From IMG/VR virus record IMGVR_UViG_3300033153_007039, positions 1 through 46,929 of that record: a DNA stretch of 46,929 bases. One strand, given 5' to 3'. Shown here piece after piece: positions 1-46,929 of the stretch (position 1 is its first letter; every line of letters begins with the position of its first letter). The stretch is from a virus. The notes below the pieces were generated by a model, which was given only the letters and a program-made list of their open reading frames with translations, searched no databases and was not told where the DNA came from. The position numbers were made by a program, and so were the translations under genes.

Positions 1-90
1 GGTGATATGTTAGCAAGGTCTACATTCAGTGCAGTGGCTGTTAATAATGGAGATACTATAAACATTGGTTATGATAATGTTGTAAGTTGA
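1..90 (+). CDS. Virion/tail protein, 3' end only
   Basis: This is the last 29 codons and stop of a gene whose 5' part lies before the window. The bases are identical to the end of the complete gene at 45436-45885, so it is either a second copy or, more simply, the same gene met again because the genome is circular. It is followed on the same strand by the fibre gene at 163, which fits a tail/fibre operon. Confidence 0.7.
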   Translation, partial: GDMLARSTFSAVAVNNGDTINIGYDNVVS

Positions 91-114
91 TTCCATTTTC
101 TCAAATGAGAATCT
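1..114 (+). repeat. 114-bp exact direct repeat, copy 1
   Basis: These 114 bases match 45796-45909 exactly. The two copies diverge at base 115 versus 45910. The repeat covers the 3' end of a structural gene and a small inverted repeat (TTCTCA-AA-TGAGAA) just after its stop. Such an overlap is what a circular or circularly permuted genome gives, but the window runs 1020 bases past the second copy into different sequence. Confidence 0.95.
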
Positions 115-162
115 TTGAAAATAAAAAAGATAAGATAGAAATACTTTGGGTTCTAAAACAAA

Positions 163-1959
163 ATGGCAGATAAGTTAGTATATACAAATGTTTATGCGAC
201 AGCAGACCAGACAGGAATCTGGGGTCCTTATTGGATAAATGCAACAACAGGGGTAGTAGTTTATTCTGATGCTTCCAGAAACATGAGGTTTTCAAGAACT
301 ACAAATGGCGGAGCTGATTGGAGTGATACACAAATAGATTCTGGAACAGGGTTAAGGTCATGTGCTTGTTGGTTTGACCAAGAAACTCCTGGAGATAGTG
401 GAACTCTTATTCATGTAACATGGGCAGATAGTGGAGATAATGCAATATATTATAGAACAATAGATATAAGTGATGGAAGTCAAGGAACTCGTAGAACTGT
501 AGACGCTGGGGTAACAGTTTCAACGACCCACTGGAACAACAGAACAGCAATAACAAAAACAGTTAGTGGAAATATTATAGTAGCTTTCTCAACACAATCT
601 GAAATAGAATGTTATAAATCAGCAGATTTATTCGCGACTGCTGGAACAGATATAGCTGATGTGTTTGAAACTACAACAGAAGAAGACTGGCTATTATTAT
701 ACCCAGCCAGCACAGCAGATGATAATGATGCGGTGGGTATTTTTTGGGATAGAAGTGCAAATGCTATCTCTGTAAAGATGTATGATGATAGCGGAGACAG
801 TTGGACTGAAACAGCTATTGCTTCTTCAATGGTCGACCATGCATATTATAAAACTATGGACGCAGCAGTAAGACACAGCGATAGCCACATATTATTAGCT
901 GCACACAACAATTATGAAACTGCAACTGGAGATTTAATGACATGGGATATTACACCCAACAGCATAGCCTCCCCAACTGTTACAGCAAAAACAAATGTAT
1001 TCACAGACCAAGATGATTCAAGTTTATGTGCAGTAATGATTAACCAACAAAATGATGATGTTTATGTAGCTTATACTTATGGAACTGACTTTGAAGTAGA
1101 TACTGAAGTTTTATATAAAAAATCTGATGATGATATGGGAAGCTGGGGGGGTGCAACAACATATAGTGGAGCGGCACAAGATTACAAGTCAGTGTCAGGT
1201 GGGAGAACAATAGGGGATAATGGTGGATTTATTCAATGGGGGATATATGATGATGATGAAACAGCCCTTTATGTAAATGAAGATAATGACGTTGCAATCG
1301 CCGCTGCTGGGGGAGAAACACATAACTTATCTTATTCTGATACTCTTACCTTAGTTGATAGTGTTTCAATAGATTCCTTATTAACTGAAGAAATATCTGA
1401 AGCAGACACTTTAAGTTTAAGTGATTCTGTAAGCTTATCTATTTTTGGGGTTGTTTATGAAACTGATACCCTTAGTCTTTCTGATAGTGTTTTAATAGGG
1501 GCTGATGTTTCTCTTGGGATTAGTGAATTAGATACTTTGTCTATCACAGATAGTATTTCTATTGAAGGGGATGTTACATTAGGAATTTCTGAAACTGATA
1601 CTCTTAATTTAACAGATAGTGTTTCTATTGATGGGCAACAAACTTTAGGGATAAGTGAAGAAGATACTTTAAGCCTAACAGATAGTGTTTTAGTAGCTTT
1701 AGTAGTTGGTGTAGAAAGTTTTACAGTTGTTGAAACCCTTAATTTAACAGATTCTGTTTTAACTTCTGTAAATTATTTAGAAGAAATTTCTGAAACTGAT
1801 ACCTTAAATATTTCTGATAGTGTTTCAATAGATTCTATTTTAGAAGAAGGAATTAAAATTATAGAAACTTTAAATTTAAGTGATTCTGTTTCAATAAGTG
1901 CAACATTAATTGAAGAATTAACAATTACAGAAACTACAACAAAAAATAACTTCAATTAG
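163..1959 (+). CDS. Tail fibre/adhesin, N-terminal part (sialidase-like propeller + 22-residue repeats)
   Basis: This is a 598-residue frame. Residues 1 to about 390 look like a beta-propeller of the BNR/sialidase-like kind: Asp-box-like stretches (TTNGGADWS, YDDSGDSW, SDDDMGSW) recur at blade-like spacing. From about residue 390 it becomes tandem repeats of about 22 residues built on ETDTLSLSDSVSI. The frame ends at TAG 1957, but the repeats continue at once in the +1 frame up to 2872. The real product is therefore probably one protein of about 900 residues, broken by one extra A in the A6 run at 1941-1946. The likely role is glycan binding or cleavage at the host surface. Catalytic sialidase residues cannot be assigned by eye. 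Confidence 0.75.
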   Translation: MADKLVYTNVYATADQTGIWGPYWINATTGVVVYSDASRNMRFSRTTNGGADWSDTQIDSGTGLRSCACWFDQETPGDSGTLIHVTWADSGDNAIYYRTIDISDGSQGTRRTVDAGVTVSTTHWNNRTAITKTVSGNIIVAFSTQSEIECYKSADLFATAGTDIADVFETTTEEDWLLLYPASTADDNDAVGIFWDRSANAISVKMYDDSGDSWTETAIASSMVDHAYYKTMDAAVRHSDSHILLAAHNNYETATGDLMTWDITPNSIASPTVTAKTNVFTDQDDSSLCAVMINQQNDDVYVAYTYGTDFEVDTEVLYKKSDDDMGSWGGATTYSGAAQDYKSVSGGRTIGDNGGFIQWGIYDDDETALYVNEDNDVAIAAAGGETHNLSYSDTLTLVDSVSIDSLLTEEISEADTLSLSDSVSLSIFGVVYETDTLSLSDSVLIGADVSLGISELDTLSITDSISIEGDVTLGISETDTLNLTDSVSIDGQQTLGISEEDTLSLTDSVLVALVVGVESFTVVETLNLTDSVLTSVNYLEEISETDTLNISDSVSIDSILEEGIKIIETLNLSDSVSISATLIEELTITETTTKNNFN

Positions 1960-2130
1960 TAAAACTGATACTTTAACAATTACAGATAGTGTTGAAACTT
2001 ATGGTGCAACATTTTATCCAATTAGTGAAACAGATACTTTGAGTATAAGTGATTCTGTTAGTGCAGCATCTTCTGAACTTCAAGGGCAAACAATCACAGA
2101 AACTTTAACAATTACAGACACTACAACTAT
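1320..2130 (+). repeat. 22-residue (66-bp) coding repeats of fibre stalk
   Basis: About twelve degenerate copies of a unit close to ETDTLSLSDSVSIEGDVSLGIS are encoded in tandem, with a period of 22 residues in the best-conserved middle copies. The alternating hydrophobic/Ser-Thr pattern suggests a beta-solenoid or beta-strand stalk. The same unit is used in the separate gene at 40401-41441. Confidence 0.85.
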
Positions 2131-2872
2131 TGCAGTTGCCGAAGGCAAAGGAACAATCTTAAAATTCAATCCATTTACAGGAACACTCCAATGGCTTAAA
2201 GATTTAACAGAAATAGATTCTGATGTTTTGCCTAAATTAAATAATACTTATTATCTTGGAAATAAAGATTATAGATTTAAAGGATTTCTTTCAGAAGCAC
2301 AAATCGGAGATTCAACAAACTATCTTGATATTTCAGACACAGGGGTATTAACTTTAAAAGGCACAGCAAGGATAACTAAGGACTTATGGATAGATGCAGC
2401 AGGAATAAAAGCGCCTGGCGCTAAACCAGCTACTGAAATATCTCAAGGAAACTTAGAAAATTCTGCCTGGCAGTTTGATGATCAAGCTGTTGAAGCAAAT
2501 CAAGAAAGCGTAAGCTGGAGAATTGCCCCAGCTTATGACATGGACAGAAGCGAAGAAATTACAATAAGGATTGGCTGGAGTTCTGCTTCAACTGGAAATG
2601 TGAAATGGCAATTAGAATATAGATGGCTTGCTGAAGATGAAGATACAACATTAGGAGCAGAAGAAACTTTAACTGCAGTAAGTGATGCATCCACAACAGC
2701 AGACGGATTGGTTGTAACTGATATAACAGGAATAAACGCCCCAAGTTCAATAGATGCAAGTATAATTTTTAAACTAACAAGATTATCTGCTGATGTGCAG
2801 GATACTATTACAGATACAGTAAAACTTCATGGAATATGTTTTAATTATATCTCCAATAAATTAGGAGGATAG
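2039..2872 (+). CDS. Tail fibre/adhesin, C-terminal part (repeats + knob)
   Basis: The reading frame is open from just after the A6 run at 1941-1946; the first ATG is 2039. It starts with the last two or three 22-residue repeats. A linker follows, with a phrase typical of tail fibres (NTYYLGNKDYRFKGF, as in 'YLGSSSYRWKDLY'). The end is a domain of about 130 residues rich in beta-strand and Trp, probably the receptor-binding knob. No start signal precedes 2039, so independent translation is unlikely. I read it as the distal half of the gene that begins at 163. Confidence 0.7.
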   Translation: MSISDSVSAASSELQGQTITETLTITDTTTIAVAEGKGTILKFNPFTGTLQWLKDLTEIDSDVLPKLNNTYYLGNKDYRFKGFLSEAQIGDSTNYLDISDTGVLTLKGTARITKDLWIDAAGIKAPGAKPATEISQGNLENSAWQFDDQAVEANQESVSWRIAPAYDMDRSEEITIRIGWSSASTGNVKWQLEYRWLAEDEDTTLGAEETLTAVSDASTTADGLVVTDITGINAPSSIDASIIFKLTRLSADVQDTITDTVKLHGICFNYISNKLGG

Positions 2873-5394: not shown

Positions 5395-5649
5395 ATGGAA
5401 AAAGAATTTAATTTAACAAAAGCAAAGAAAGAAGCTTTGAAAAAAGCAGGAAGACTTAAATCTAATTTTGATTGTTCTAATTGTTCTCATTGTGATGATT
5501 GTTCTCATTGTTCTCATTGTTATGATTGTTCTCATTGTTCTCATTGTTATGATTGTTCTTATTGTTATGATTGTTTTGATAAAAAATATATGATATGTAA
5601 TACTCAATTTACAAAAGAGGAATATGAAACATGGATAAAGCAATTATAG
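5395..5649 (+). CDS. Cysteine-rich hexapeptide-repeat protein
   Basis: The protein has 84 residues. After a Lys-rich helix (residues 1-24) comes an almost perfect run of Cys every third residue (SHCYDCSHCSHCYDC) up to about residue 61, then a normal C-terminal tail. The DNA is a matching run of TGTTCTCAT/TGTTATGAT units. Similar NCTNC-type repeats occur in small phage proteins, where they are thought to form a metal-binding or beta-helical rod; this is family knowledge recalled, not tested. It overlaps the next gene by 19 bases. Confidence 0.65.
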   Translation: MEKEFNLTKAKKEALKKAGRLKSNFDCSNCSHCDDCSHCSHCYDCSHCSHCYDCSYCYDCFDKKYMICNTQFTKEEYETWIKQL

Positions 5650-7778: not shown

Positions 7779-7932
7779 AAGATTTATTCCTTATTGTGAT
7801 TATCAACATCATAGGGGAATAATTAAATATCAATTACATCATAGGGGAATAATTAAATATCAATTCTATCCAACTTGTAAAAAAAGAGAATGCAGACATT
7901 TGATAAGACTTTCACTTGTTAATAGATTATAA
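7729..7932 (+). CDS. Small zinc-binding-type protein with internal duplication
   Basis: The protein has 67 residues, and the start is firm (AGGAGGTTAAATG). One Cys (PYCDY) lies before and two Cys plus a His (PTCKKRECRH) after a 10-residue sequence that is duplicated in tandem. The duplication lengthens the loop between the putative metal ligands and is probably recent, because the DNA copies are almost identical. The gene ends 6 bases into the convergent RuvB-like gene. Confidence 0.6.
   Translation: MKPKRVLKYSPMEEGDKRFIPYCDYQHHRGIIKYQLHHRGIIKYQFYPTCKKRECRHLIRLSLVNRL
7807..7866 (+). repeat. 30-bp tandem duplication
   Basis: The units 7807-7836 and 7837-7866 are identical except for the last base. 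They lie in frame inside a zinc-type small gene and add ten residues (HHRGIIKYQL/F). Confidence 0.9.
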
Positions 7933-9006
7933 TTCTTCCAAAACTTCTGAATAATTATTCTCATAACTTTCAGAAACTCCTACATCATTTCCAAAAGATA
8001 GAAAATCAATCTCATCAGGAGAAATACCTTCTACTATTTTATCTGCAATAAAATTCACTAATTCCAAATATCTTTTTCCAAACTTATCTCTTATTTCTGG
8101 ATTTTCTCTTAAATAAGTGTGTGCTAATGTTATTTCATCCATAGTTTTTTCACTATGTTCCTTCTCACTTTCTTTTTGTAATTCTTCATAAGAAACATTT
8201 TTGAAATTGGGTGCTAATTCTCTCCCTCTTGAACTAATCAAAATTACTCCTTTTCTAATTAAGTCAGGTTCTATATCTAATTTAATGTAATTCTCACTTC
8301 GTCGTAAGACTAAACTTAAATTTCTTAAACTTGCTTTCTTTATTGAATTAAGATGTTTTATATATTTTTCTTGTTCATCAGATAATCCAGAATAAATATT
8401 AATCTTCATTAATCTGAACACTTTAGTCAAATTCTTTTCATTTTTCTCTCCATATAATTCAACATATTCAATAATCTTTTTTAAAATTCTAATATTAAGT
8501 GTATAATTTATTAGATAACCTATACACTTATCATTTAATCCAATCTTTTTTAAGATTTTAGTTAAAGTTTCTTCATCAGGCTCATCAAATTCAATTCTCA
8601 TAAATCTATCCATTAATGGTTTGGGTAATCTTTCAGGTTCAGTTGTTGTTCCAATAAATGTAATATTCTTTAAGATATGCCTTTTTCCATCATCATAAAT
8701 TTCATTATCTTGAATAGCAGAATAAATAATTTCACTTACCTTTTCTGGAAGATTATGAATCTCATCAATTAAGATAATAGCATCATTTTTCGCTGAAAGC
8801 ATTAAAGTGATAATTTTCCTTTTACTCATAGCCCCATTTAAATAAATAAAAGGTTTTTTAGTTTCACAAGCAATCATCTTAGATGAATTATGAGAGATTA
8901 TTCCATTTGAAAGTATAAAATTCTTATTATCTTCAACAGATAAATCATACATATCTACTTCTTTAGAAGTAAATCTTATTTTTTCAATTTTAATCCTTTG
9001 TTCCAT
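7927..9006 (-). CDS. RuvB-like AAA+ ATPase, C-terminal half, preceded by split-intein C part
   Basis: The 359-residue frame begins with about 40 residues of an intein C-terminus: VDMYDLSVEDNKNFILSNG then ISHN, followed by Ser as +1 residue. The extein that follows is RuvB-like: Walker B IILIDEIHNLP (DEIH at residues 81-84), sensor 1 FIGTTTEPE, arginine-finger stretch LMDRF. A winged-helix end (SDEQEKYIKHLN...LIRKGVILISSRGRELAP) lines up with the RuvB C-terminal domain. A further 85 residues are extra. RuvB drives Holliday-junction branch migration in bacteria. Walker A lies in the separate gene at 9425-9922, so function requires protein trans-splicing. It is the last gene of the leftward operon and overlaps the HNH gene by 31 bases. 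Confidence 0.8.
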   Translation of the reverse strand: MEQRIKIEKIRFTSKEVDMYDLSVEDNKNFILSNGIISHNSSKMIACETKKPFIYLNGAMSKRKIITLMLSAKNDAIILIDEIHNLPEKVSEIIYSAIQDNEIYDDGKRHILKNITFIGTTTEPERLPKPLMDRFMRIEFDEPDEETLTKILKKIGLNDKCIGYLINYTLNIRILKKIIEYVELYGEKNEKNLTKVFRLMKINIYSGLSDEQEKYIKHLNSIKKASLRNLSLVLRRSENYIKLDIEPDLIRKGVILISSRGRELAPNFKNVSYEELQKESEKEHSEKTMDEITLAHTYLRENPEIRDKFGKRYLELVNFIADKIVEGISPDEIDFLSFGNDVGVSESYENNYSEVLEEL

Positions 9007-9703
9007 GGTTTTCTTTCTTTGTTCCAGTGTTCTTTTCCTTGTAAATTGTTTAAATTTTTAAGATGACATTTTTGAGAACAATAGATTTTCTTTCCTTTAA
9101 TTGCATAAAATTCTTTATGGCATACAGGACAAATCTTTTTCTTACTTTCCCTATATTTTTTCCATTTTTCCTTCATCATTTTACTTTGATTAGTTCTATT
9201 TTGCATATCTCTCTTATGTTGTTTTATATGACAAGATTGACATAAAACCATTAAATTTTCTATTTTGTTGTTAAAAGGATTTTTATCAATATGATGGACA
9301 ATTAAATCAAAATTATCATTTGTTTTTTCTTTCCCACAAATCATACATTTCCATTTAAAATTAGATTTTGCTATTTTTAAATAGTTTTTTCTATTTCCTT
9401 TCTTTGATTTTGGATTTCTTGCTATCATTCTACATATAATAAATAGTCGCTTGTATTTAAATCTTTTGTTTTAATAATTTGTCTTTTATTATCTCTAATA
9501 ATAAACCATTTATGTTCAGGGCTACATTTTAACCAACCTTTTTTAGTATGAATTATACATAGTTGCTTTTTTCCTGCATAACTTAATTGTGCTTTTTTAC
9601 TTTCAATTTTCTTTTTATTAAAATTATATGATAAAACCTCTTTTATTTTCTCTATTGGTTTTAATCCATTTGGAGTTTTAATTAAAGTTCCTTTAGGCAT
9701 ACA
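8887..9703 (-). other. Split intein interrupted by a free-standing HNH gene
   Basis: The intein N part occupies 9428-9703 (92 residues, Cys1 in CMPKGTLIKTPNGLKPIE, block B-like CSPEHKW). The C part is 8887-9006 (40 residues, ending HN before Ser+1). The two parts are in different genes, and between them lies a complete HNH nuclease gene whose ATG overlaps the N-part stop (ATGA). The sizes 92 and 40 are those of natural split inteins. The insertion point is one residue after the Walker A Lys-Thr, a favoured intein site. This is the fractured-gene layout described for some environmental phage genes. Confidence 0.8.
8976..9428 (-). CDS. HNH homing endonuclease inside fractured RuvB gene
   Basis: The protein has 150 residues. 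The HNH site is CMICGKEK...LIVHHIDKNPFNNKIENLMVLCQSCHIKQH at residues about 32-80. A second zinc ribbon (CPVCHKEFYAIKGKKIYCSQKC) follows, and the end is a PWNKG DNA-contact motif near the C-terminus. That is the plan of group I intron or intein-linked homing nucleases. Its start overlaps the stop of the intein N half and its end overlaps the start of the intein C half, so it is translated as a separate protein. It is expected to mobilise the split intein into an intein-free allele. Confidence 0.8.
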   Translation of the reverse strand: MIARNPKSKKGNRKNYLKIAKSNFKWKCMICGKEKTNDNFDLIVHHIDKNPFNNKIENLMVLCQSCHIKQHKRDMQNRTNQSKMMKEKWKKYRESKKKICPVCHKEFYAIKGKKIYCSQKCHLKNLNNLQGKEHWNKERKPWNKGLKLKK

Positions 9704-9922
9704 ATAAGTCTTTCCTGTTCCTGCATAACCACTAAATAACAAATTCCTTCTTTCACCTTTTTTCAATTTCTCTAAAATTAATTTCATAAAAACTTCTTGT
9801 TTTGGAGTAAAAACTACATCAGAGAATTTAGGTTCTTCAATTATCTCTCCAATCTCCTCTTCTTTTTCTTCATTTTCATTAACAAATTGTTTTTTTCCAA
9901 AATAATCTATAATCCATCCCAT
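9425..9922 (-). CDS. RuvB-like AAA+ ATPase, N-terminal half, followed by split-intein N part
   Basis: The protein has 165 residues. Residues 1-73 are extein: a variable acidic start, a PKFSDVVFTPKQEVFMKLI segment as before RuvB P-loops, and Walker A GYAGTGKT at residues 65-72. Cys74 then opens an intein N-domain that runs to the stop. The extein cannot bind and hydrolyse ATP alone, because Walker B and sensor residues are in 7927-9006. The start is ATG 9922, inside the end of the small zinc gene at 9907-10041. Homopolymer error cannot easily explain the split, because both downstream genes have proper starts exactly at the breaks. Confidence 0.8.
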   Translation of the reverse strand: MGWIIDYFGKKQFVNENEEKEEEIGEIIEEPKFSDVVFTPKQEVFMKLILEKLKKGERRNLLFSGYAGTGKTYCMPKGTLIKTPNGLKPIEKIKEVLSYNFNKKKIESKKAQLSYAGKKQLCIIHTKKGWLKCSPEHKWFIIRDNKRQIIKTKDLNTSDYLLYVE

Positions 9923-15617: not shown

Positions 15618-15756
15618 ATTAGAAATATTAACAGCACTAACCTTAGTTCAAGGATATTTGCTTAAAGAAAATTATGATTTATCAGAATTACTTAATAGAG
15701 TAAAAGCTAATCTTCAAGATAATTATTTTAAAATTTTAAAAAATGGAAGAAAATAA
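15601..15756 (+). CDS. Small helical protein
   Basis: The 51-residue product (TELEILTALTLVQGYLLKENYDLSELLNRVKANLQ) is helical with leucine spacing that suits a coiled coil. It overlaps genes on both sides, so it is translated in series with the regulator pair and the chaperonin. Family unknown. Confidence 0.5.
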   Translation: MEKMTELEILTALTLVQGYLLKENYDLSELLNRVKANLQDNYFKILKNGRK

Positions 15757-17134
15757 ATATGCACACATTCAGGCAGCAGTAAATTTCTGCGATTTAATTA
15801 GAAGCACACTTGGACCTCGTGGGATGAACAAGGCAGTAATAAACAAGGAAACTGTTTTCACAAATGATGGTGCTACTATAATTGATCAAATTAATGTAAA
15901 TGACCCAATAGTTAATCTATTTAAAGAATTAGCAAAAAGTCAAGAGGAACTAATAGGTGATGGGACTTCTACAACAGTTATTCTAAGCGGACAATTACTT
16001 GATAATGCACTCACCTTACTTAATAAAGGGATTCATCCAACTACTATAATTAATGGATATTCTTTGGCAAAAGTGGAATGTATGAAGAAACTTAATGAAT
16101 TTAAAGAAAAAGGTGAAAAAGATAAAATTATTGAAACTGCATTTGGTTCTAAGATTACCCCAGATATAATGAAAATTTTAAAGAATTTAATTAATCAAGT
16201 GAAAGATTTTGAAAAATTAAGGATATACAAATGTGCTGGAGATCCAAAAGACTCAAAACTCTTTTTTGGATATATTTTTGATGGATTTACAATAAATGAA
16301 AGAATGGAAAACGAAATTTCTGGAAAAATTGCAGTATTAGATTATAGAACTAATGTAGAAGCATCTGATATGCACATTAGTCAAGTGGATGAACTTAAAA
16401 AAATAAATGAATATGAAAGAGCTTATAAAAAAGAGATTGTGGACAAATTAGTAGAACAAAAAATAAAATGTCTTTTTTATACTGATACTAACCCTGAATT
16501 TGAAACATATTTGACAGAAAAAGGAATTACAGGAATAGTAGTTTATCAAAGAGATGCTATTGATGGAATTTGTGAAGCCTTAAAAATAAACGCAACTTCT
16601 GACATAAAAAACATTTATTCTGCTGTAGGGCATATAAGATATGAAAAACCAAGAAGTATTTATATTACAGGAAATTCTGAAACACTTATCTTAAAAGGGC
16701 CAACAAAACAAACTACTGATGAAATTGAAAGAGCAGTTCATGATGTTGTTTCATTACTTAAACATGAAATAGATCAAGTGGTAGGTGCAGGTGCAATAGA
16801 AATTGAATTAGCAAAAAGAATAAGAGATTTAGCAGAAAATGTTGGTGGAAAAGAACAATTAGCCATAGAAAAGTTCGCAGAATCTATTGAATCAATTCCT
16901 TTAATAATTGCAGAAAATTGTGGATTAGACGCAATTCAGATTTTAGCAGCCTTAAAAACAATGCACAAAGAAAATCCAAATGTAGGAGTAGATATGGTTA
17001 AGGGAGTTTCTGATGCAAGGGAGAGAGGATTAGTAGAACCAGTTTTAGTAAAAATTCATGCAATTAATTCTGCAACAAATGTAGCAAATTTAATTTTAAA
17101 GACAGATAAAATTCTTATGGGAGAACAAAAATGA
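15743..17134 (+). CDS. Group II chaperonin (thermosome subunit), shortened
   Basis: At 463 residues it is about 80 shorter than cellular thermosome subunits. ATPase motifs are present: STLGPRGMNKA (21-31), NDGATI (41-46), GDGTST (72-77), GAGAIEIELA and NCGLDAIQILAAL. The N-terminal strand region of about 30 residues, parts of the apical domain and the Gly/Met tail are missing or reduced. Thermosomes fold proteins inside a double ring with ATP. A viral copy may fold capsid or fibre proteins, form its own ring or mix with host subunits. It follows the small regulators with overlap. Transfer from a host is likely, followed by trimming. Confidence 0.9.
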   Translation: MEENKYAHIQAAVNFCDLIRSTLGPRGMNKAVINKETVFTNDGATIIDQINVNDPIVNLFKELAKSQEELIGDGTSTTVILSGQLLDNALTLLNKGIHPTTIINGYSLAKVECMKKLNEFKEKGEKDKIIETAFGSKITPDIMKILKNLINQVKDFEKLRIYKCAGDPKDSKLFFGYIFDGFTINERMENEISGKIAVLDYRTNVEASDMHISQVDELKKINEYERAYKKEIVDKLVEQKIKCLFYTDTNPEFETYLTEKGITGIVVYQRDAIDGICEALKINATSDIKNIYSAVGHIRYEKPRSIYITGNSETLILKGPTKQTTDEIERAVHDVVSLLKHEIDQVVGAGAIEIELAKRIRDLAENVGGKEQLAIEKFAESIESIPLIIAENCGLDAIQILAALKTMHKENPNVGVDMVKGVSDARERGLVEPVLVKIHAINSATNVANLILKTDKILMGEQK

Positions 17135-17208: not shown

Positions 17209-17508
17209 ATGAAAGATACAAAATTCAAAAAAGGCCAGAAACCTTGGAATAAAGGAAAAAGATTTTCACAGATTGAAGGAGAGAAACATTGGAATTGGAA
17301 GGGTGGTATTACAAGATATAGACAGATAATTATACGGGAAGGTATAGAATTATCTTGTCAAGAGTGTGGTTCTAAAAGAAAAATCCAAATTCATCATAAA
17401 GATAAAAATAGAAGCAATAATAATCTAAGCAATTTAAGAGTTCTTTGTTCAATTTGTCACGCAAATCTACATAAGAATTGGGAGGGAAGATGGGGAAAAA
17501 AATCCTAA
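17209..17508 (+). CDS. HNH homing endonuclease (4)
   Basis: The 99-residue protein has N-terminal PWNKG and HWNWKGG motifs (DNA-contact NUMOD type), then CQECG, IQIHHKDKNRSNNNLSNLRVLCSICHANLH, a complete HNH site. Its last bases overlap the epimerase-type gene start. It is probably a mobile insertion between the chaperonin and the glycan genes. Confidence 0.8.
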   Translation: MKDTKFKKGQKPWNKGKRFSQIEGEKHWNWKGGITRYRQIIIREGIELSCQECGSKRKIQIHHKDKNRSNNNLSNLRVLCSICHANLHKNWEGRWGKKS

Positions 17509-18434
17509 TTACAGGAATTTCAGGATTTGCTGGAAGTCATTTAGCTGAGTATTGTTTATCTAAGGAATGTGAAGTTCATGGAACTATTAGATGGCGAAGT
17601 GATTTAAAAAATTTAAAAGAAATTCCACAAATACAATTACATGAATGTGATTTAACTGATGCTTATTCTATTAGAGATATAATCAAAGAAGTTAAACCAG
17701 ATTATATTTTTCATTTGGCTGCACAATCTTTTGTAAAAGCGTCTTGGACTAATCCTTCTCAAACACTTACTAATAATATAATAGGAGAACTTAATTTGCT
17801 TGAAGCAGTTAGAAATGCAAATTATAAACCAAGAATTATGATTGCAGGTTCTTCTGAAGAATATGGTCATACTGAGACTGCCTTGAATGAGGATAGCCCC
17901 CTTTTGCCATTGTCTCCCTATGGCGTGTCAAAAGTCGCTCAGGATCTTCTTGCTCAACAATATGAGAGATCATATGGATTAGATATTGTGGTAACACGAG
18001 CATTTAATCATACTGGCCCAAGAAGAGGGGATGTTTTTGTTTGTTCTTCTTTTGCGAAGCAGATTGCAGAAATAGAAAAAGGAAAAGTCCCAGTAATTCA
18101 TGTAGGAAATCTTGATGCAGAAAGAGATTTCACAGATGTAAGAGATATAGTAAAAGCATATTGGCTTGCTTTAGAAAAAGGTGAAAAAGGAGAAGTTTAT
18201 AACATTTGTTCTGAAACAACAATTCCAATAAAAAATATTTTAAGAAAATTATTAATGATGAGTAAATTAAAGATTGAGATAAGACAAGACCCAAAAAGAA
18301 TGCGCCCATCTGATTTAAAAGTTTTGGTAGGAGATTGCACTAAATTCAAAGAAAAAACAGAATGGACACCTTCTATAAAAATTGAACAAACACTTGAAGA
18401 TTTATTAAATTATTGGAGAAATAATGAAAACTGA
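17490..18434 (+). CDS. GDP-4-keto-6-deoxymannose reductase-like NAD(P)-dependent SDR
   Basis: The 314-residue protein has a Rossmann start (GITGISGFAGSHLAEY variant: ILITGISGFAGSHLAE), the active-site SSEEYG and YGVSK pair (Tyr-x-x-x-Lys), RAFNHTGP, NLDAERDFTDVRDIVKAYW and a C-terminal RPSDLKVLVGDCTKFKEKTEW. These phrases together are those of Rmd-type reductases that make GDP-rhamnose, rather than GDP-mannose dehydratase itself. ATG 17490 is chosen, with GGAGGG just before; the TTG at 17478 is less likely. No 4,6-dehydratase is in the window, so the substrate would come from the host. First gene of the glycan cluster. Confidence 0.8.
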   Translation: MGKKILITGISGFAGSHLAEYCLSKECEVHGTIRWRSDLKNLKEIPQIQLHECDLTDAYSIRDIIKEVKPDYIFHLAAQSFVKASWTNPSQTLTNNIIGELNLLEAVRNANYKPRIMIAGSSEEYGHTETALNEDSPLLPLSPYGVSKVAQDLLAQQYERSYGLDIVVTRAFNHTGPRRGDVFVCSSFAKQIAEIEKGKVPVIHVGNLDAERDFTDVRDIVKAYWLALEKGEKGEVYNICSETTIPIKNILRKLLMMSKLKIEIRQDPKRMRPSDLKVLVGDCTKFKEKTEWTPSIKIEQTLEDLLNYWRNNEN

Positions 18435-18555
18435 AAAACAAGTCAAAAGAAAATTAGAAGATTTAAAAAAAGAATGGGTTAAGTCAGAAGTTAATTCTAA
18501 TCAAAGAAAAAAAATAAATAGAGGTGTGGAAATGTTGGAGTGGGTATTACAATGA
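18424..18555 (+). CDS. Small helical protein
   Basis: The 43-residue, charged, helical product (KQVKRKLEDLKKEWVKSEVNSNQRKKINRG) overlaps the reductase gene before it and the glycosyltransferase after it (ATGA). Unknown; similar short helical proteins often sit between phage genes. Confidence 0.45.
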   Translation: MKTEKQVKRKLEDLKKEWVKSEVNSNQRKKINRGVEMLEWVLQ

Positions 18556-19235
18556 AAATAATTATGAGTTATTTACAAGAAGATGAAAAACTTAAAACTT
18601 GTTTGCATTCTCTTAAAAAATATTCTCCTAATGTTGAGATAGTTAAACTTCACTCTGACCCAAAGAAAACTAAATCTTCTGAACACGCTTTTGATACTTA
18701 TTTTGAAGAACATGGCATGGATGATGATTATATGATTTGGCATCCAGACATGATTGCAACTGAAGGATGGTATGAAAAATTAATGGAGTATTATGATTTA
18801 TTTGATGTGATTGGATGTAAATTAGTTTATCCAAATGGATTAATTCAGCATTATGGTGGAGCATTATATCCTGGACAAACTATTGCAGGGCCAGGAGCAG
18901 TTGGTGGACATCCTCATCAGCACTCTATGAATATTGGATTAAATGAACCATTATCTTGTCCTTATGTTACAGGCCCAAGCATGGTTGTTAAAAAAAAGGT
19001 TTGGGAAAAATTAAAAGGATGGGATCATTCCTATTGGTGTTATATAGATGCAGATTTTTGTATTAGAGCATTAAAGGAAGGTTTTACAGTTGGAGTTGTT
19101 CCAGTAACATTAATTCATAGTGAAGGAGAAGATCAATTAAAAAAAAGAACTAAAGAATATAACGCAAAGTTATTAAGTGAGGGCTGTGTAATATTTACAA
19201 GTAAACATATGGATTATTTATCTAAATTCAAATGA
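18552..19235 (+). CDS. Family 2-type glycosyltransferase
   Basis: The 227-residue protein has the GT-A plan: MKIIMSYLQEDEKLKTCLHSL opening, a DDDYMIWHPD acidic motif near residue 62, a Cys/Gly middle, and YWCYIDADFCIRALKEGFTVGVVPVTLIHSEG as acceptor and metal-site region near the end. It lacks signal or membrane segments, so it acts in the cytoplasm. Its place between the sugar reductase and a radical SAM gene suggests it transfers a modified sugar. Confidence 0.75.
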   Translation: MKIIMSYLQEDEKLKTCLHSLKKYSPNVEIVKLHSDPKKTKSSEHAFDTYFEEHGMDDDYMIWHPDMIATEGWYEKLMEYYDLFDVIGCKLVYPNGLIQHYGGALYPGQTIAGPGAVGGHPHQHSMNIGLNEPLSCPYVTGPSMVVKKKVWEKLKGWDHSYWCYIDADFCIRALKEGFTVGVVPVTLIHSEGEDQLKKRTKEYNAKLLSEGCVIFTSKHMDYLSKFK

Positions 19236-20077
19236 AATTACCAAGAAGATATAATTACGCAGAGGCATATCTTACCTTTAGATGTCCACTTAATTGCGAA
19301 TATTGTATTAATGATGATTCTGGAAAACTTGAAAGAAGAAGAAAAGAAATTTCTGGAAAAGAATGGGTTAAAGGATTAAATAGAATCGACTTTGGGAATA
19401 TTCCTCTAACATTAGGTGGTGGAGAACCAACACAACACGCAGATTTTTATGAAATATTAGAAAGATTAAATATGAATAAAGTAGATTTATTAACAAATTT
19501 AGAATTTGATGTAGAGAAATTTTTAGATAAAACAATTCCAGAAAGATTTAGTCAAGAAGAAAACCCTGCTTACAAATCAATAAGAGTTTCTTTTCATCCT
19601 GGACAAATGGACCCAGATGATTTAGTAAGAAAAGTAAAAAGAATCCAAGATGAAGGTTATGCAATAGGAATTTTTGGATTGAATCATCCTTTGAATATTG
19701 AAGATAATATTCAAATGTCTGAATTAGCAAGACAGAATGGAATTTACTTTTTTATTAAAGATTTTTTAGGAGAATATAGAGGACATACCTTTGGTTTTTA
19801 TAAATATCCGAATGCTATAAAGGGTGGAAAAAAAGAAGTATTATGTAAAACTAAAGAACTTTTAATAGACCCTGAAGGAGAGATTTATAGATGTCATAGA
19901 GATTTATATAGAAAAAAACATAAAGTGGGAAGTATTTTAGATCCTAATTTTAAAACAGATAAATTAGATAGATTTAGACCCTGTTTAAATTTTGGAGAAT
20001 GTAATCCTTGTGATGTTAAATTAAAAACTAATAGATTTCTACAAAAAGGAAATTGTCAGGTGGAGATTGTAAAATGA
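19232..20077 (+). CDS. Radical SAM enzyme (1)
   Basis: The 281-residue protein has the CxxxCxxC cluster as CPLNCEYC at residues 18-25 and GGGEPT near 64, the SAM-binding GGE motif. A further Cys group near the end (CHRDLYRKKH, CLNFGECNPC) suits an auxiliary iron-sulfur cluster. These enzymes use 5'-deoxyadenosyl radicals for difficult changes such as epimerisation, dehydration or C-methylation. It overlaps the genes on both sides by 4 bases. Substrate unknown; in this setting it could be a sugar, nucleotide or peptide. Confidence 0.8.
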   Translation: MKLPRRYNYAEAYLTFRCPLNCEYCINDDSGKLERRRKEISGKEWVKGLNRIDFGNIPLTLGGGEPTQHADFYEILERLNMNKVDLLTNLEFDVEKFLDKTIPERFSQEENPAYKSIRVSFHPGQMDPDDLVRKVKRIQDEGYAIGIFGLNHPLNIEDNIQMSELARQNGIYFFIKDFLGEYRGHTFGFYKYPNAIKGGKKEVLCKTKELLIDPEGEIYRCHRDLYRKKHKVGSILDPNFKTDKLDRFRPCLNFGECNPCDVKLKTNRFLQKGNCQVEIVK

Positions 20078-20850
20078 GTTGTGGGAAATGTGGGCATAGA
20101 GCTATACCTCATGATTTAAAAGAATTACCTGAAAATACAAGATTATTGAGTATCTGTTGCACAAGGGGAAAGCCAGAATTAGTTCAAGAGATGTTAAAAT
20201 CTTTTGATGAAACAAAATCTGAAGGAACAGAAATAGTTTTATTTGTTTGGAAAGATGACCCAAAAGTTGAACAATATAAAAAAGCTTTAGAGGGGAGGAA
20301 TGTTCTTTGGGGAGATAAATTATTTATGGGAGATGTCTTGAATTATATTTCAACAGAAGTTTATCCAGATGTAGATTATTATCAAAATATAAATGATGAC
20401 CATTATTATGTTGTAAAGGGTTGGGATAAAATGATGACAGGAGTTCTTGATGATAATAAAGGATGGGGGGTTTCTTATTGTAAAGGAAAAGATAATGCAC
20501 ATAATCCTAATGCAGAAATTGTTTCTGGAAAAATAGTTAGAGCAATAGGGTGGTATGTTTATCCAGGATATAGGCAATTTGGATTAGAACCATATTTTAT
20601 TTCACTTGGAGAAGCTTGTGGATTTTTTCTAATTCCAGAAGTAATTGAACATCGTTCTATTAATGCAGGATTTGGTGCAAAAGATGATATTTATGCTTTT
20701 ATTTATTCTCCAGAAGAAGCAATTAATGCAAGAAAAGCTTACGATGAATGGCAAGAACACAAAGCTGGATGTTTTGAAAAAATTAGATTAGCAATTAGAA
20801 AAGAAATGCAGGAGGCTGTGGGAAAGAAAACTCCTTATATGTTAAAATGA
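20074..20850 (+). CDS. Glycosyltransferase-like protein (GT-A type)
   Basis: The 258-residue protein begins with a CxxC (MSCGKCGHRA), then RLLSICCTRGKPELVQEMLKSF, typical of a GT-A N-terminus, and YYQNINDDHYYVVKGWDKMM with a DxD-like metal motif near residue 110. The region GLEPYFISLGEACGFFLIP may hold the acceptor site. ATGA overlap with the radical SAM gene fixes the start at 20074. Function in glycan assembly is likely; donor unknown. Confidence 0.6.
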   Translation: MSCGKCGHRAIPHDLKELPENTRLLSICCTRGKPELVQEMLKSFDETKSEGTEIVLFVWKDDPKVEQYKKALEGRNVLWGDKLFMGDVLNYISTEVYPDVDYYQNINDDHYYVVKGWDKMMTGVLDDNKGWGVSYCKGKDNAHNPNAEIVSGKIVRAIGWYVYPGYRQFGLEPYFISLGEACGFFLIPEVIEHRSINAGFGAKDDIYAFIYSPEEAINARKAYDEWQEHKAGCFEKIRLAIRKEMQEAVGKKTPYMLK

Positions 20851-21338
20851 AAATAAAAACAACATTTGTAGAAGAATATTGGAAAAATAAATCTAAATTT
20901 AAGATAGATGATTGGACCCCAAAAAAGGAAGACCATATTGTTTTAATTAATCTTATTGAAAAATTTAATCTTAAATCTTTTTTTGAAATTGGAACTTATA
21001 CCGCATTTACTACAGAACTTCTTGCAACTCATCCAAACATAAAGAGGTGGAAATCTATTGATACAAACCCTCATATTTATCATCCTAATATAATTAAAAT
21101 AGATAGTGGAGAATATATTCCAGGAATTAATTGTTTTCCAGAGGGAGAGGATGAACAATATGATTTAATTTTCATTGATGGGGATCATCAAAATGTAAAA
21201 AGAGATACAGAATTAGCATTAAGATTAAAACCAATAGTTATTGCTTGGCATGATTATAAAGAATTATTTGTTCAAAGAGATGTAGATTTATTTAAACCAG
21301 ATAATGTGGAGGCAAATGTAGCATGGAAAAAAGTATAG
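20847..21338 (+). CDS. SAM-dependent methyltransferase-like protein (1)
   Basis: The 163-residue protein has a class I methyltransferase core: FFEIGTYTAFTTELLAT (motif I), then YDLIFIDGDHQNVKRDTELALRLKPIVIAWHDY, characteristic of the Methyltransferase_24 group found in glycan and O-antigen loci. A relative lies at 21726, sharing the IDxxHxDxExDTELALRLKP-WHDY end. Overlaps both neighbours. Confidence 0.75.
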   Translation: MKIKTTFVEEYWKNKSKFKIDDWTPKKEDHIVLINLIEKFNLKSFFEIGTYTAFTTELLATHPNIKRWKSIDTNPHIYHPNIIKIDSGEYIPGINCFPEGEDEQYDLIFIDGDHQNVKRDTELALRLKPIVIAWHDYKELFVQRDVDLFKPDNVEANVAWKKV

Positions 21339-21736
21339 TTTATGCTTATGTTGTGGCAGATTTACTTCATATTGGGCATTTAACTCATTTAGAGAATGCT
21401 AAGGCTCTTGGAGATAAATTAATTGTTGGTGTTTTAACTGATGAAGCAGTAATGGAAAAGAAAAAGAAACCAATTTTACATTTTGAAGAAAGATTTAGAT
21501 TAGTAAAATCTCTTAAATGTGTTGATTGTATAGTGATTCAAACAACATATTCTCCAATTCATAATATTAAAACTTTAAAACCAAATATTTTAATGGAGAG
21601 CGATAGCCATAATGAGCAAGACATAGAAAATGCTAAAAGAGCTATGGAACCTTGGGGTGGAAGGGTTATAGTTACACCATATTATCCTGAACAATCTTCA
21701 ACTAAAATTAAGAAGGAGATTAAAAATGCAGGCTAA
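21323..21736 (+). CDS. Cytidylyltransferase (nucleotidyltransferase, HxGH type)
   Basis: The 137-residue protein is about the length of glycerol-3-phosphate cytidylyltransferase. HIGH at residues 16-19 (LLHIGHLTHLENAK), RF...K in the middle and SSTKIK near the end are the family motifs. It transfers CMP (or another NMP) from NTP to a phosphorylated alcohol or sugar. The next-but-one gene is LicD-like, which uses CDP-activated choline-type or related groups, so the pair may attach a phospho-alcohol to a glycan. The substrate cannot be read from the sequence. Confidence 0.8.
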   Translation: MEKSIVYAYVVADLLHIGHLTHLENAKALGDKLIVGVLTDEAVMEKKKKPILHFEERFRLVKSLKCVDCIVIQTTYSPIHNIKTLKPNILMESDSHNEQDIENAKRAMEPWGGRVIVTPYYPEQSSTKIKKEIKNAG

Positions 21737-22274
21737 AGAATATGTTGATTGGTATAATGAGAAGTTTATACAAAGTTTAAGTAATGGGAATAACCTTTGT
21801 TTTCCTAAAGAGGACCAATTAGTTTTGATTGAACTTATTGAAAAATATGATATAAAATCTGTTTTAGAGTTTGGAACTTTTGAAGGGTGCACAACAAATT
21901 TAATACATTTACATCCAAATATTAAAAGAATAAAAACACTTGATTGGGGAAAACCCTATCCTATTGAACGATATGGTTCTTATTTTAAAAAAGCAAAAAA
22001 TGTTGAATTAGTATTTACCCAAACATCAGATTGGAAACCAAATGGAGAATATGATTTGGTTCTTATTGATGCAGGACATAGAGATTTTGAAGTAGAATAT
22101 GATACTGAACTTGCTTTAAGATTAAAACCTAAAATAATTGTTTGGCATGATTATCCTTTTAATCTTGAAGAAGATGAACGAGGTCATATAGGTGTTAAAT
22201 CAGTTGTTGATAATTTAGCAAAAACTATGGATATTAAATTTGGGGGAAAGAAGATAGCATGGTTGAAGATATGA
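21726..22274 (+). CDS. SAM-dependent methyltransferase-like protein (2)
   Basis: The 182-residue protein is a paralogue of the one at 20847: VLEFGTFEGCTTNLIHLHPNIKRIKTLDWG (motif I and II), YDLVLIDAGHRDFEVEYDTELALRLKPKIIVWHDYPF. It presumably methylates a sugar hydroxyl or a related small group. The two differ in length at the C-terminus. Confidence 0.75.
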   Translation: MQAKEYVDWYNEKFIQSLSNGNNLCFPKEDQLVLIELIEKYDIKSVLEFGTFEGCTTNLIHLHPNIKRIKTLDWGKPYPIERYGSYFKKAKNVELVFTQTSDWKPNGEYDLVLIDAGHRDFEVEYDTELALRLKPKIIVWHDYPFNLEEDERGHIGVKSVVDNLAKTMDIKFGGKKIAWLKI

Positions 22275-22837
22275 AACAAACTATGAAAAATACTTTATTT
22301 AAGTTCGATGATATTTGTAAAGAGTTAGGCATTACATTTTTTTTACTTCAAGGGACTTGTTTAGGATTTTATAGAGATGGTGGATTTATTCCTGGAGATG
22401 GAGATATTGATTTATATGTAAAATGTAGTAAGAAAAAGTTAATAAAATTATTTGAAGAATGTGAAAAGAGGCAAATATATCCAGAGAAAAATTGTTTTTC
22501 TAATGTTTTTGAGAATGCTAAAGGAGAAGAAATAAATAGACATCTTAAAGTTGGAAGTTATTGGATTGATTGTTATTTTAAAATGTTAGACGATAGAAAA
22601 ATGTTTATGATTAAAACCGATAAAGTAGAAGTTTTTGGAAGAACTTTTAATTGCCCTCACCCTGTTGATGCTTACTTAACTTTAGAATTTGGAAATTGGA
22701 AAGTTAAATGTGGACAAAAAAGTAGAGGCAGAGGTTCTCCACTTCCTGAACCTTCAAAAGATTTATCTTGGGAAGAATTATTGGCTGCACCAAAATGGTT
22801 AAGAGATACTAAAAGACATGATAGGGGTAAAATATGA
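22259..22837 (+). CDS. LicD-family phosphotransferase
   Basis: The 192-residue protein has the LicD signature near residues 28-55: LLQGTCLGFYRDGGFIPGDGDIDLYV, close to GT-LG-R-GFIPWDDDID. It belongs to the nucleotidyltransferase-fold enzymes that add phosphocholine or related groups to surface glycans. The second Asp of the usual DDD set is Gly here (GDGDID), but two Asp remain. ATG 22271, in an ATGA overlap with the stop before, is an alternative start. Fits functionally with the cytidylyltransferase at 21323. Confidence 0.8.
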   Translation: MVEDMKQTMKNTLFKFDDICKELGITFFLLQGTCLGFYRDGGFIPGDGDIDLYVKCSKKKLIKLFEECEKRQIYPEKNCFSNVFENAKGEEINRHLKVGSYWIDCYFKMLDDRKMFMIKTDKVEVFGRTFNCPHPVDAYLTLEFGNWKVKCGQKSRGRGSPLPEPSKDLSWEELLAAPKWLRDTKRHDRGKI

Positions 22838-23913
22838 AAAGATTAATGGATGGAACAAAATTACTTTGGCATATGGATAGGGTTAAAGAACACTATGATG
22901 AAGGCAAAAGGATTTCTCCTTTATTGATTAATATTGGGGCAACTAAAAAATGTAATGCTAATTGTATTTATTGTTATGGAGTTTTTCAAGGCAAAGATCA
23001 AAAATCCACAATAGACAGAGAACCATTACTCCATTTATTTTATTCTGCACCAAAATTAGGTGTTAAAGCTATTGAAATAATTGGAGATGGAGAACCAACA
23101 TTAAATCCTCACATCTATGATGCTATGGATATTGGAAAAAAAGAAGGATTAGACATGGCATTTTCTACTAATGGAATTTTACTTGACACTGATGAAAAGA
23201 GAGAAAATGTTTTAAGGAATTGTTCTTGGATGAGATTTAATCTATCCGCAGGAACAAGAGAGGGCTATAAAAAAATTCATAGAGTTGATAAGTTTGAGAA
23301 AGTTGTTGAAAATATAAAAAGAATGGTTGAATTAAAGAAATATCCATATGGATATCCATGTGATGTTGGATTACAAGCAGTTTATGTTCCAGGACTTATG
23401 GACCAAGATATAATTGATGAATCGATTTTAGCAAGAGATTTAGGAGTTGATTATTTATTAATTAAACAATGTTCTCTCCCAGAAAAAGGGGTTGTTGCAG
23501 ACATCTCTTTTGATGTAAATGATTATGATAAACCAGAAATAAAAAGTATTTTAAAAAGATGTGAAAGTTTATCAAATGATAAAACAGATATAGTTGTTAA
23601 ATGGGAATTTATGCAAATAGGAAAAAGAAGGCCATATGATCATTGTGTTGATGCCCCCCTAATTTTTCAGGTTAGTGGAAATGGAAAATGTTATCCTTGT
23701 GGTTATCTTTTTGGAAATGAAGAATATGAATATGGAGATTTAAACACGCAATCACTTCAAGGGATTTTAGAAAGTGAAAAATATTGGGAGATAATAGATA
23801 AAATGAAAAAGTTTGATGTTCATAATGATTGTGAAGGCTGTTGTAGACATGATAAAATAAATGAATTTTTATCTGAATATTTAGATAAACCAAATGGAGT
23901 TAATTTTATATGA
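22834..23913 (+). CDS. Radical SAM enzyme with SPASM-like end (2)
   Basis: The 359-residue protein has CNANCIYC at residues 40-47, GDGEPTLNP near 88-96, and two more Cys groups towards the C-terminus (CYPCGYLFG and CEGCCRHDK) as in SPASM or twitch domains that carry extra iron-sulfur clusters. Such enzymes modify peptides, cofactors or sugars. It overlaps genes on both sides by 4 bases. Distinct from the radical SAM at 19232 in length and cluster layout. Confidence 0.8.
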   Translation: MKRLMDGTKLLWHMDRVKEHYDEGKRISPLLINIGATKKCNANCIYCYGVFQGKDQKSTIDREPLLHLFYSAPKLGVKAIEIIGDGEPTLNPHIYDAMDIGKKEGLDMAFSTNGILLDTDEKRENVLRNCSWMRFNLSAGTREGYKKIHRVDKFEKVVENIKRMVELKKYPYGYPCDVGLQAVYVPGLMDQDIIDESILARDLGVDYLLIKQCSLPEKGVVADISFDVNDYDKPEIKSILKRCESLSNDKTDIVVKWEFMQIGKRRPYDHCVDAPLIFQVSGNGKCYPCGYLFGNEEYEYGDLNTQSLQGILESEKYWEIIDKMKKFDVHNDCEGCCRHDKINEFLSEYLDKPNGVNFI

Positions 23914-24464
23914 TAAAGGATTTAATCTGGAAAAAAGTAATGGGATTTACAGTTACCCAATTTGAAAGAGTTAGTTATCTTATTGATGCAGTTGAAGAAA
24001 TAGTGAAAAATAAAATTGAGGGAGATTTTGTTGAATGTGGAATTAAATTTGGTGGAAGTTGTATGGCTATGGATCTTGCTTTAAAAGAATTAAAAGAAAA
24101 AAGAAAAATTTGGATGTATGATGTTTTTAATAAAGAGTTTGAGGATTGTCCTTCTGAAGAAGAAATAAGGAAATTAATGAAAGGAGTAGACACAGAAATT
24201 GTTGTTGGAAATGTATTAAAAACTATCCCAGAAAAGATGCCAAAGAAAATTGCTTTATTGAGATTAGATACAAATTTCTTTAGTTCTACTTATCACGAAT
24301 TAGTTCATTTATATCCTTTACTTGAAAAAGGTGGAATTTTAATCATCGATGATTATGGACATTGGCCTCAATGCAAAGAAGCAGTTGATAAATATTTAGA
24401 AGAAAATAATATAAAATCTAAATTAAATGTAATTGATTACACTGGAAGATGGCTAAGAAAATAG
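23910..24464 (+). CDS. TylF/MycF-type sugar O-methyltransferase
   Basis: The 184-residue protein shows the macrocin O-methyltransferase pattern: GDFVECGIKFGGSCMAMDLAL (SAM site), WMYDVF, LLRLDTNFFSSTYHELVHLYPLLEKGGILIIDDYGHWPQCKEAVDKYL (metal and catalytic region with the Asp pair). The N-terminal arm is shorter than in TylF. The family methylates hydroxyls of deoxysugars, which suits the GDP-deoxyhexose reductase at the start of the cluster. Confidence 0.8.
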   Translation: MIKDLIWKKVMGFTVTQFERVSYLIDAVEEIVKNKIEGDFVECGIKFGGSCMAMDLALKELKEKRKIWMYDVFNKEFEDCPSEEEIRKLMKGVDTEIVVGNVLKTIPEKMPKKIALLRLDTNFFSSTYHELVHLYPLLEKGGILIIDDYGHWPQCKEAVDKYLEENNIKSKLNVIDYTGRWLRK

Positions 24465-25204: not shown

Positions 25205-25284
25205 CAATTTTAGAATTTATAGCATATAAGATATTTAGAATGCCTAAATTTTGTTACGATAATTGGGGGTATTATTATCCATGA
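25201..25284 (+). CDS. 27-residue peptide between transketolase subunits
   Basis: The frame begins in an ATGA with the first subunit and ends in an ATGA with the second (MTILEFIAYKIFRMPKFCYDNWGYYY). Both overlaps suggest translation, if only to pass ribosomes along. The N-terminal half is hydrophobic. No known function. Confidence 0.4.
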   Translation: MTILEFIAYKIFRMPKFCYDNWGYYYP

Positions 25285-45435: not shown

Positions 45436-45885
45436 ATGGAAGAAAACGTTGGTTTAAAAGGTGTATTTAGAGTAGCTGTATTGGGAAAAGATAATGAGTT
45501 AAAAGCTCAATTTGATGTTCCTAACACTGTTATGAATGCTGGAAAAGCAGTAGTATCTGGATTGATGATGTTAGACGTTGGTGAAGATGCGTTTGATCAT
45601 ATAGCAATCGGAACTGATAATACAGCACCAGATGCAACTCAAACTGCATTAATTGCTGAAGTTTATCGTTCTGCAGGGACTGGTTCTCAAGAAACTACAA
45701 CTGTTACAGACGATACTGCAAGATTGACTACAAGTGTAGCAATTACTTCAAGTGTAAGCATCCAAGAAGCAGGAGTTTTTAATAGCTCATCTACTGGTGA
45801 TATGTTAGCAAGGTCTACATTCAGTGCAGTGGCTGTTAATAATGGAGATACTATAAACATTGGTTATGATAATGTTGTAAGTTGA
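45436..45885 (+). CDS. Virion protein (fibre/decoration type)
   Basis: The 149-residue protein has AGGAGGTTAAAATG at its start. The core (FDHIAIGTDNTAPDATQTALIAEVYRSAGTGS, then beta strands TARLTTSVAITSSVSIQEAGVFNSSSTGDMLAR) is a common pattern among phage tail-fibre-linked or decoration proteins. Its last 29 codons and 24 bases after the stop form the 114-bp repeat found at the window start. Confidence 0.65.
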   Translation: MEENVGLKGVFRVAVLGKDNELKAQFDVPNTVMNAGKAVVSGLMMLDVGEDAFDHIAIGTDNTAPDATQTALIAEVYRSAGTGSQETTTVTDDTARLTTSVAITSSVSIQEAGVFNSSSTGDMLARSTFSAVAVNNGDTINIGYDNVVS

Positions 45886-45909
45886 TTCCATTTTCTCAAA
45901 TGAGAATCT
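45796..45909 (+). repeat. 114-bp exact direct repeat, copy 2
   Basis: Identical to 1-114. It ends at TGAGAATCT, after which TAATGAGAATCT repeats nine of the last bases, making a short tandem at the divergence point. The inverted repeat TTCTCA-AA-TGAGAA lies at 45893-45906. Confidence 0.95.
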
Positions 45910-45910
45910 A

Positions 45911-46929
45911 ATGAGAATCTATTGGGAAAGTTTGAAGAAATGGGGCTTAATAGGAATACCTGTAGGTATATCTGGATTTGCTCTTTTATTTTATTATCTT
46001 ATTTTTATTGAAGCAATAGTTGTTAGTGGATACTCTGGAGATATGACTTGTGCAGGAACTGAATCAGACCCTTGTTTAGCTTTTATTAATTTTACTGCTA
46101 AAGAAGATATTTTTATTTATCCAATTGGTTATGATCCTTGGGGGAGAGATACTCCTTTTGAAACAGATAAAGAATTAAAGTCTTGGAAGATGTATCGTTC
46201 TTGGGGAACTGGATGGAGAGAGATCAAATTAGATAAAACTTGCAAGGGAACTTGGTGTGGGGCTCCAAATAATTTAGGGGTTAAATATTCTTTTGTATTT
46301 AGAAAGGATAGAGATTATCAAATAAAGATTGAGGCATTAAAGAAAAATCCAGAAGAAAATATTAAATGGGGATTTGGCCCTATTGATCCAATTTGGTTTG
46401 GAAGTAATAAATTTTCACAATATAGAACTAATGGAAATGTTCATTATAAATTATTATCAAGAACAGGAAATGAAAGTTTATATTCTGTGAGCTTTAGAGA
46501 AATTGAAGTGATTAATCACACTTATTTAATAACAGAAGATGAGAATGGACCATTAAAAGACCAAATAAGTGTAAATGTAAATAGAACAGATACTATTATT
46601 TGTGCAGTAGCAGACTTTGATTCTAAAGAAGTTAATTATATTTATAATTTAGCAACTTACGAAGTTCCAAGTAAAATGTCTTTTTATAAAACAGAAAGCT
46701 TATCTAAACAAACAGACTTAACAAGAGAATTAGTAAAAGGAGATGAAATGAGTTTAACTCCAAATAAATTTGAAAAAGGAGATGAATATAAATTTTGTTA
46801 TACTGCAAATCCTGAACAAGACTATTATTTGAAGTTTGGAGATAACTCTATAATAATTATTCAGGAAGAAGATGTTGTTGCAGATGCTTTACTTACAAAT
46901 GTAACAGCAGAGGCAGGAAAATCAAATCA
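45911..46929 (+). CDS. Membrane-anchored extracellular protein, 3' truncated by window
   Basis: The frame runs from ATG 45911 to the window end (339 residues so far). Residues about 11-35 (WGLIGIPVGISGFALLFYYLIFIEAIVV) are a membrane anchor or signal. After it comes an extracellular-type region with paired Cys (DMTCAGTESDPC, KTCKGTWC), aromatic phrases (YPIGYDPWGRDTPF, WGFGPIDPIWFG) and beta pattern. I recall similar unnamed proteins from archaeal metagenome contigs. It could be an alternative adhesin or host-surface protein. It follows the 114-bp repeat in place of the fibre at 163. Confidence 0.6.
   Translation, partial: MRIYWESLKKWGLIGIPVGISGFALLFYYLIFIEAIVVSGYSGDMTCAGTESDPCLAFINFTAKEDIFIYPIGYDPWGRDTPFETDKELKSWKMYRSWGTGWREIKLDKTCKGTWCGAPNNLGVKYSFVFRKDRDYQIKIEALKKNPEENIKWGFGPIDPIWFGSNKFSQYRTNGNVHYKLLSRTGNESLYSVSFREIEVINHTYLITEDENGPLKDQISVNVNRTDTIICAVADFDSKEVNYIYNLATYEVPSKMSFYKTESLSKQTDLTRELVKGDEMSLTPNKFEKGDEYKFCYTANPEQDYYLKFGDNSIIIIQEEDVVADALLTNVTAEAGKSN

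Follow-up and report, generated by a model that had tools for sequence, protein, structure and literature searches.

Why do the first bases of a viral contig recur near its far end, only to lead there into different genes? The question arises from a 46,929-nt stretch of DNA (the window, positions 1 to 46,929 of IMG/VR record IMGVR_UViG_3300033153_007039), a viral record that is classed in IMG/VR as linear and without end repeats. We asked whether its two ends belong to one locus, and what the two continuations represent.

An exact repeat at both ends of the window

The initial annotation had reported that positions 1-114 equal 45796-45909 and then diverge. The identity held over all 114 bases, with a mismatch at the very next base. 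Because the window contains no other exact direct repeat of at least 40 bases, we do not attribute the pair (repeat R) to chance. Terminal repeats of a linear genome were ruled out, as 1020 bases lie beyond the second copy. Each copy comprises the end of a 149-codon adaptor-like gene (its final 29 codons and the stop), a short spacer and then ATGAGAATCT, which is homologous to the first codons of the gene that follows the second copy (gene B). Elsewhere, the motif at the end of R was found in one relative only, G002 (IMGVR_UViG_3300033148_007463). The features of the locus are collected in Table 1; we refer to the continuation after the first copy as version A and to that after the second as version B.

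Table 1. Coordinates of the features at the two ends of the window
Feature	Position	Strand	Basis
Repeat R, copy leading into version A	1..114	+	Identical to 45796-45909; aligned with relatives
Junction and leader of version A; in-frame mini-ORF MRIFENKKDKIEILWVLKQNGR from 105 overlaps the fibre start	115..162	+	Translation
N-terminal domain of the version A fibre, foreign-looking, 38.9% GC	163..1329	+	No match in G002, G003 or G004; match in L012; highest GC
Fibre stalk repeats (SETDTLSLTDSV type) and C-terminal part; second ORF 2039-2872	1330..2872	+	Repeat families; homology to G002 fibre; reading frames
Fibre/baseplate adaptor-like gene, 149 aa	45436..45885	+	PHROG 5417/4176; fold matches 9h4p_BD and 8jou_a; sequence profile match
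Repeat R, copy leading into version B	45796..45909	+	Identical to 1-114
11-bp tandem duplication of AATGAGAATCT at the version B junction	45899..45920	+	Absent from G002
Gene B, cut by the contig end	45911..46927	+	84% amino acid identity (best segment) to G002; hydrophobic segment; LamG domain in G002 homologue

Gene order closes in relatives

Joining the two copies of R yields a circle of 45795 bp. In G002, one continuous piece runs from the adaptor gene through gene B and a stalk-repeat fibre to homologues of window position 3003 onward; it follows that a single locus unites the end and the start of the window. G004 (3300025669_001766) is colinear with the window and is cut at about window 5 kb. 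Its ends are crossed by G005, a contig from another sample, with a 138-base overlap that gives a length of about 45.76 kb. Since G005 spans this end junction, the relatives appear from their gene order to have circular or circularly permuted genomes, a physical circle and a permuted linear molecule being alike in sequence. Their sizes are close to that of the window circle (45.4 kb for G002, about 45.76 kb for G004). The circle proposed in the initial annotation thus gains support in its order from two relatives, through the unbroken locus of G002 and the closed ends of G004.

The gene at the head of the locus resembles fibre and baseplate adaptors

The 149-aa protein encoded at 45436 matched PHROG 5417 (unknown function) and PHROG 4176 (tail fibre). 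Its AlphaFold model (pLDDT 84) aligned with residues 381-508 of a tail chain of the archaeal virus HFTV1 (9h4p_BD; Z 12.9, rmsd 1.8, 126 aligned) and with the fibre-tail adaptor of phage GP4 (8jou chain a; Z 8.2, 111 aligned, 12% identity). Independently, a sequence profile of the protein found 9h4p_BD (E 4e-5) and the GP4 chain (E 0.24, a weak match taken alone), and no other chains. The HFTV1 chain is named as a baseplate hub in the profile-match listing, and this hub anchors the tail fibres (PMC12494034). On the basis of the shared fold, the profile match and the anchoring role of the HFTV1 hub, we call the protein adaptor-like, a function suggested here by its fold and by gene order. The more general label of virion gene can accordingly be narrowed to a fibre/baseplate adaptor-like gene.

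The two structural counterparts also differ from it. In HFTV1, the matching domain is part of a 953-residue hub, whereas in the window it stands as a small free gene with a predicted role in fibre attachment. The GP4 adaptor, solved with fibre I according to its entry title, is alike in size and fold but far removed in sequence. A search of a phage collection with the adaptor-like protein gave three weak matches only.

Directly 3’ of the adaptor stop codon lies the heptamer ATTCCAT (45886-45892, + strand), which is kept in G002, in both copies of the gene in a further relative, G003, and in G004. Despite this conservation, the sequence that follows the heptamer differs among the window, G002, G003 and G004.

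Two continuations of the locus

Version B consists of an ORF that is still open at the contig end. Its product has one strongly hydrophobic N-terminal segment, in agreement with the membrane-anchored protein that had been noted at 45910-46929, and the GC content of the ORF equals the genome mean. In G002, the homologous protein of 663 aa includes a LamG-type lectin domain (Laminin_G_3). Profiles of gene B and of the terminase, run against 84,980 genomes, gave no verified relative. The two copies of AATGAGAATCT at the junction (45899-45909 and 45910-45920) may reflect a genuine small duplication or have been left by an imperfect join.

Version A leads instead into a fibre, of which the next long ORF covers 163-1959. 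The N-terminal domain stands out in composition, at 38.9% GC against 29.7%, the highest of any stretch of its size in the window. We found no counterpart of this domain in G002, G003 or G004, while a relative with equal GC occurs in an unrelated virus, L012 (60% amino acid identity, 59% by tblastn). The stalk-repeat part, by comparison, is homologous to the G002 fibre. In G002 the place of the final ATGAGAATCT of R is taken by ATGAGAATTT, with which gene B opens, so that version A sets in 10 nt into that gene from its 5’ end. Because of its extreme GC content, its lack of a counterpart in G002-G004, its relative in L012 and its start inside gene B, version A is best understood as a module of foreign origin, a newcomer that would have taken the place of gene B, with the adaptor gene on one side and the stalk repeats on the other.

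A propeller- or sialidase-like nature of the N-terminal domain was considered and dropped, as the structure model was unusable (pLDDT 38) and the motifs had been seen by eye only. Near 1938-1950 the fibre ORF is frameshifted, and it resumes in the +1 frame in the second ORF of Table 1. The frame change (1938-2039, + strand) comes after an A6 tract, and may reflect a genuine mutation, phase variation at the homopolymer or an error of assembly.

Adhesin genes vary behind the adaptor gene in relatives

We compared the surroundings of the adaptor gene across relatives. The gene lies at the same site in the window (45.4 kb) and in G002, but after the position equivalent to 39408 in G003, G004 and G005. 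A third site is found in G003, where a second, inverted copy with 83% nucleotide identity to the other adjoins the portal gene. Behind the adaptor gene, most of the relatives found have a different ORF, of fibre-like or lectin-like type. Of 16 copies of the gene, 4 had a contig end within 1.3 kb downstream, where 0.9 would be expected (P about 0.01, with a cut-off that was picked after seeing the data), which fits a region whose variability often breaks assemblies.

Version A and G002 differ by an unrelated module between conserved flanks, in genomes that are otherwise colinear. This clean difference, together with the different adhesins behind the adaptor gene in relatives, supports the variable adhesin locus that was proposed initially. 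The adaptor-like fold, the LamG domain of the G002 homologue and the fibre-like repeats would be in keeping with a role in host recognition, with binding as a predicted function. As to the further suggestion that a cassette is swapped there, swapping over evolution is well supported by three sites and several types of adhesin, but no machinery for programmed swapping was seen.

Two alleles of one locus as the probable explanation

We consider it probable that the contig ends on two alleles of a hypervariable host-recognition locus in a tailed, probably archaeal, virus with a circular or permuted genome of about 45.8 kb. As part of the same explanation, the window would be an essentially complete genome, opened at this locus. 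The conserved adaptor gene would be followed by the version A fibre in part of the population and by the resident gene B in another part. The 114 bases shared by both would have made the assembly branch, so that the contig starts on branch A, completes one round of the circle and ends on branch B. Recombination between strains of the virus may have exchanged the adhesin module itself, which has the adaptor gene as its conserved left flank and the stalk repeats as its conserved right one, and such a replacement would change the surface that the virus can bind. The sequences directly establish the repeat and the flanks that are shared, the order of the circle in relatives, and for version A both a foreign composition and a start inside gene B. 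From these we infer the coexistence of A and B in one sample, the route of recombination and the effect on host binding; the presence of both alleles in the population appears to be the simplest reading, and exchange between strains through the adaptor end and the stalk repeats the simplest route.

Several observations sit less easily with this explanation. The contig stops short of the right-hand end of gene B, at which the stalk repeats would be expected to resume. One genome can hold two adaptor cassettes, as in G003. The 114-base overlap, with the contig starting 114 bases before the branch, does not correspond to a usual assembler k-mer length, and the proposed assembly route thus explains it only in part. 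Finally, the 11-bp duplication at the version B junction could be a joining artefact.

The G003 arrangement raises an alternative, possible but unlikely, in which both cassettes lie in tandem in one genome. The first adaptor copy would be followed by gene B, then by a second, perhaps partial, adaptor ending in R and by the version A fibre, with the contig broken inside gene B. G003 does have two adaptor genes that head separate adhesins, and since the contig stops inside gene B, the sequence beyond it is unseen. However, a wide distance separates the G003 copies, which share 83% rather than 100% identity, and in the nearest relative, G002, only one adaptor gene is present and gene B leads directly into the repeat fibre. 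The tandem genome would also reach at least about 48 kb by our estimate, above G002 and G004. Moreover, the R copy beside version A already includes the start of gene B, so that a replacement would have had to come after a duplication.

It is distinctly unlikely that the end in gene B, or the start in version A, was wrongly joined from another strain or a related virus in the sample, which would make the two versions different viruses rather than alleles. An uncollapsed overlap would be expected to leave a duplication like that of 11 bp, which G002 lacks, and G002 and G003, which carry the same genes, come from one sample, so that such mixtures do occur. Yet R is 100% identical in its two contexts and 88% identical to G002, which argues that both versions carry the adaptor gene of this strain, and gene B, at 84% protein identity, is not a stray piece of G002.

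We regard as very unlikely an actively mobile, adaptor-headed adhesin cassette in this virus group, for which the conserved adaptor end would serve as recombination site and through which the population would keep interchangeable adhesins, one of them displayed on the host membrane. A programmed switch, in which a site-specific or mobile system swaps cassettes at the adaptor gene end, would be in keeping with the conserved heptamer in the window, G002, G003 (both copies) and G004 and with a cassette found at several sites and inverted in G003, but it is highly improbable and not indicated, given that no inverted match to R reaches 12 nt in the window, that neither A nor B has a silent second copy there, and that no recombinase, invertase or reverse transcriptase was present among the scanned proteins, a set that did not include every small ORF. 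An invertible fibre switch in particular was rejected on the same absence of an inverted R and of an invertase in that set. As to a diversity-generating retroelement, the scanned proteins likewise included no reverse transcriptase, and A and B differ by a whole module rather than by point variation.

Relation to known host-recognition islands

Co-occurring phages that are otherwise similar can differ in variable host-recognition islands, termed metaviromic islands (PMC3909814). The likeness lies in tail fibre and carbohydrate-binding genes that differ between similar co-occurring viruses. Here, however, the variation was deduced from the two ends of one contig and from relatives, not from read recruitment; the virus is of archaeal type, and one version is a membrane-anchored LamG gene. 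The locus is thus a further example of a known variability in phage host recognition, in a poorly known archaeal-type virus group. A contig overlap that standard tools discard, leaving the record linear, can reveal both the completeness of a genome and host-recognition variation in the population. For this uncultured group, the locus highlights the genes on which host range probably depends.

Identity of the virus and other features of the window

Tailed-virus genes in the window include the terminase (29198-30598), the portal (30769-32412), the capsid (33639-34607) and an 813-aa tail protein (41443-43884). In the phage collection, the terminase had only distant matches (below 27% identity among the matches listed) and no close relative. 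A group II, thermosome-like chaperonin is encoded at 15743-17134 (+ strand), with 68-87% amino acid identity to its counterparts in G002-G004. Its best matches among solved structures were group II chaperonins, mostly archaeal thermosomes, and for this reason it points to an archaeal host, short of proof.

Downstream of the chaperonin, a long run of sugar and surface-modification genes occupies 17478-29201 (+ strand), with a GDP-mannose dehydratase-like gene, glycosyltransferases, methyltransferases, LicD, two radical SAM proteins, a cytidylyltransferase and a transketolase in two ORFs. On the opposite strand, an ATPase gene (7927-9922) is split by an intein, with the halves on separate ORFs; the G002 gene is uninterrupted. 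The ORF at 9425-9922 encodes the P-loop and the N-terminal intein part, that at 7927-9006 the C-terminal intein part and the remainder of the ATPase, and between them sits an HNH endonuclease ORF (8976-9428). This layout resembles the known split-intein “fractured gene” arrangement.

Two further repeats were observed on the + strand. The ORF at 5395-5649 is built of a 9-bp tandem repeat that encodes a Cys/His-rich repeat, and close to it on the map lie the ends of the G002, G003 and G004 contigs. An exact 30-bp tandem duplication lies at 7806-7865.
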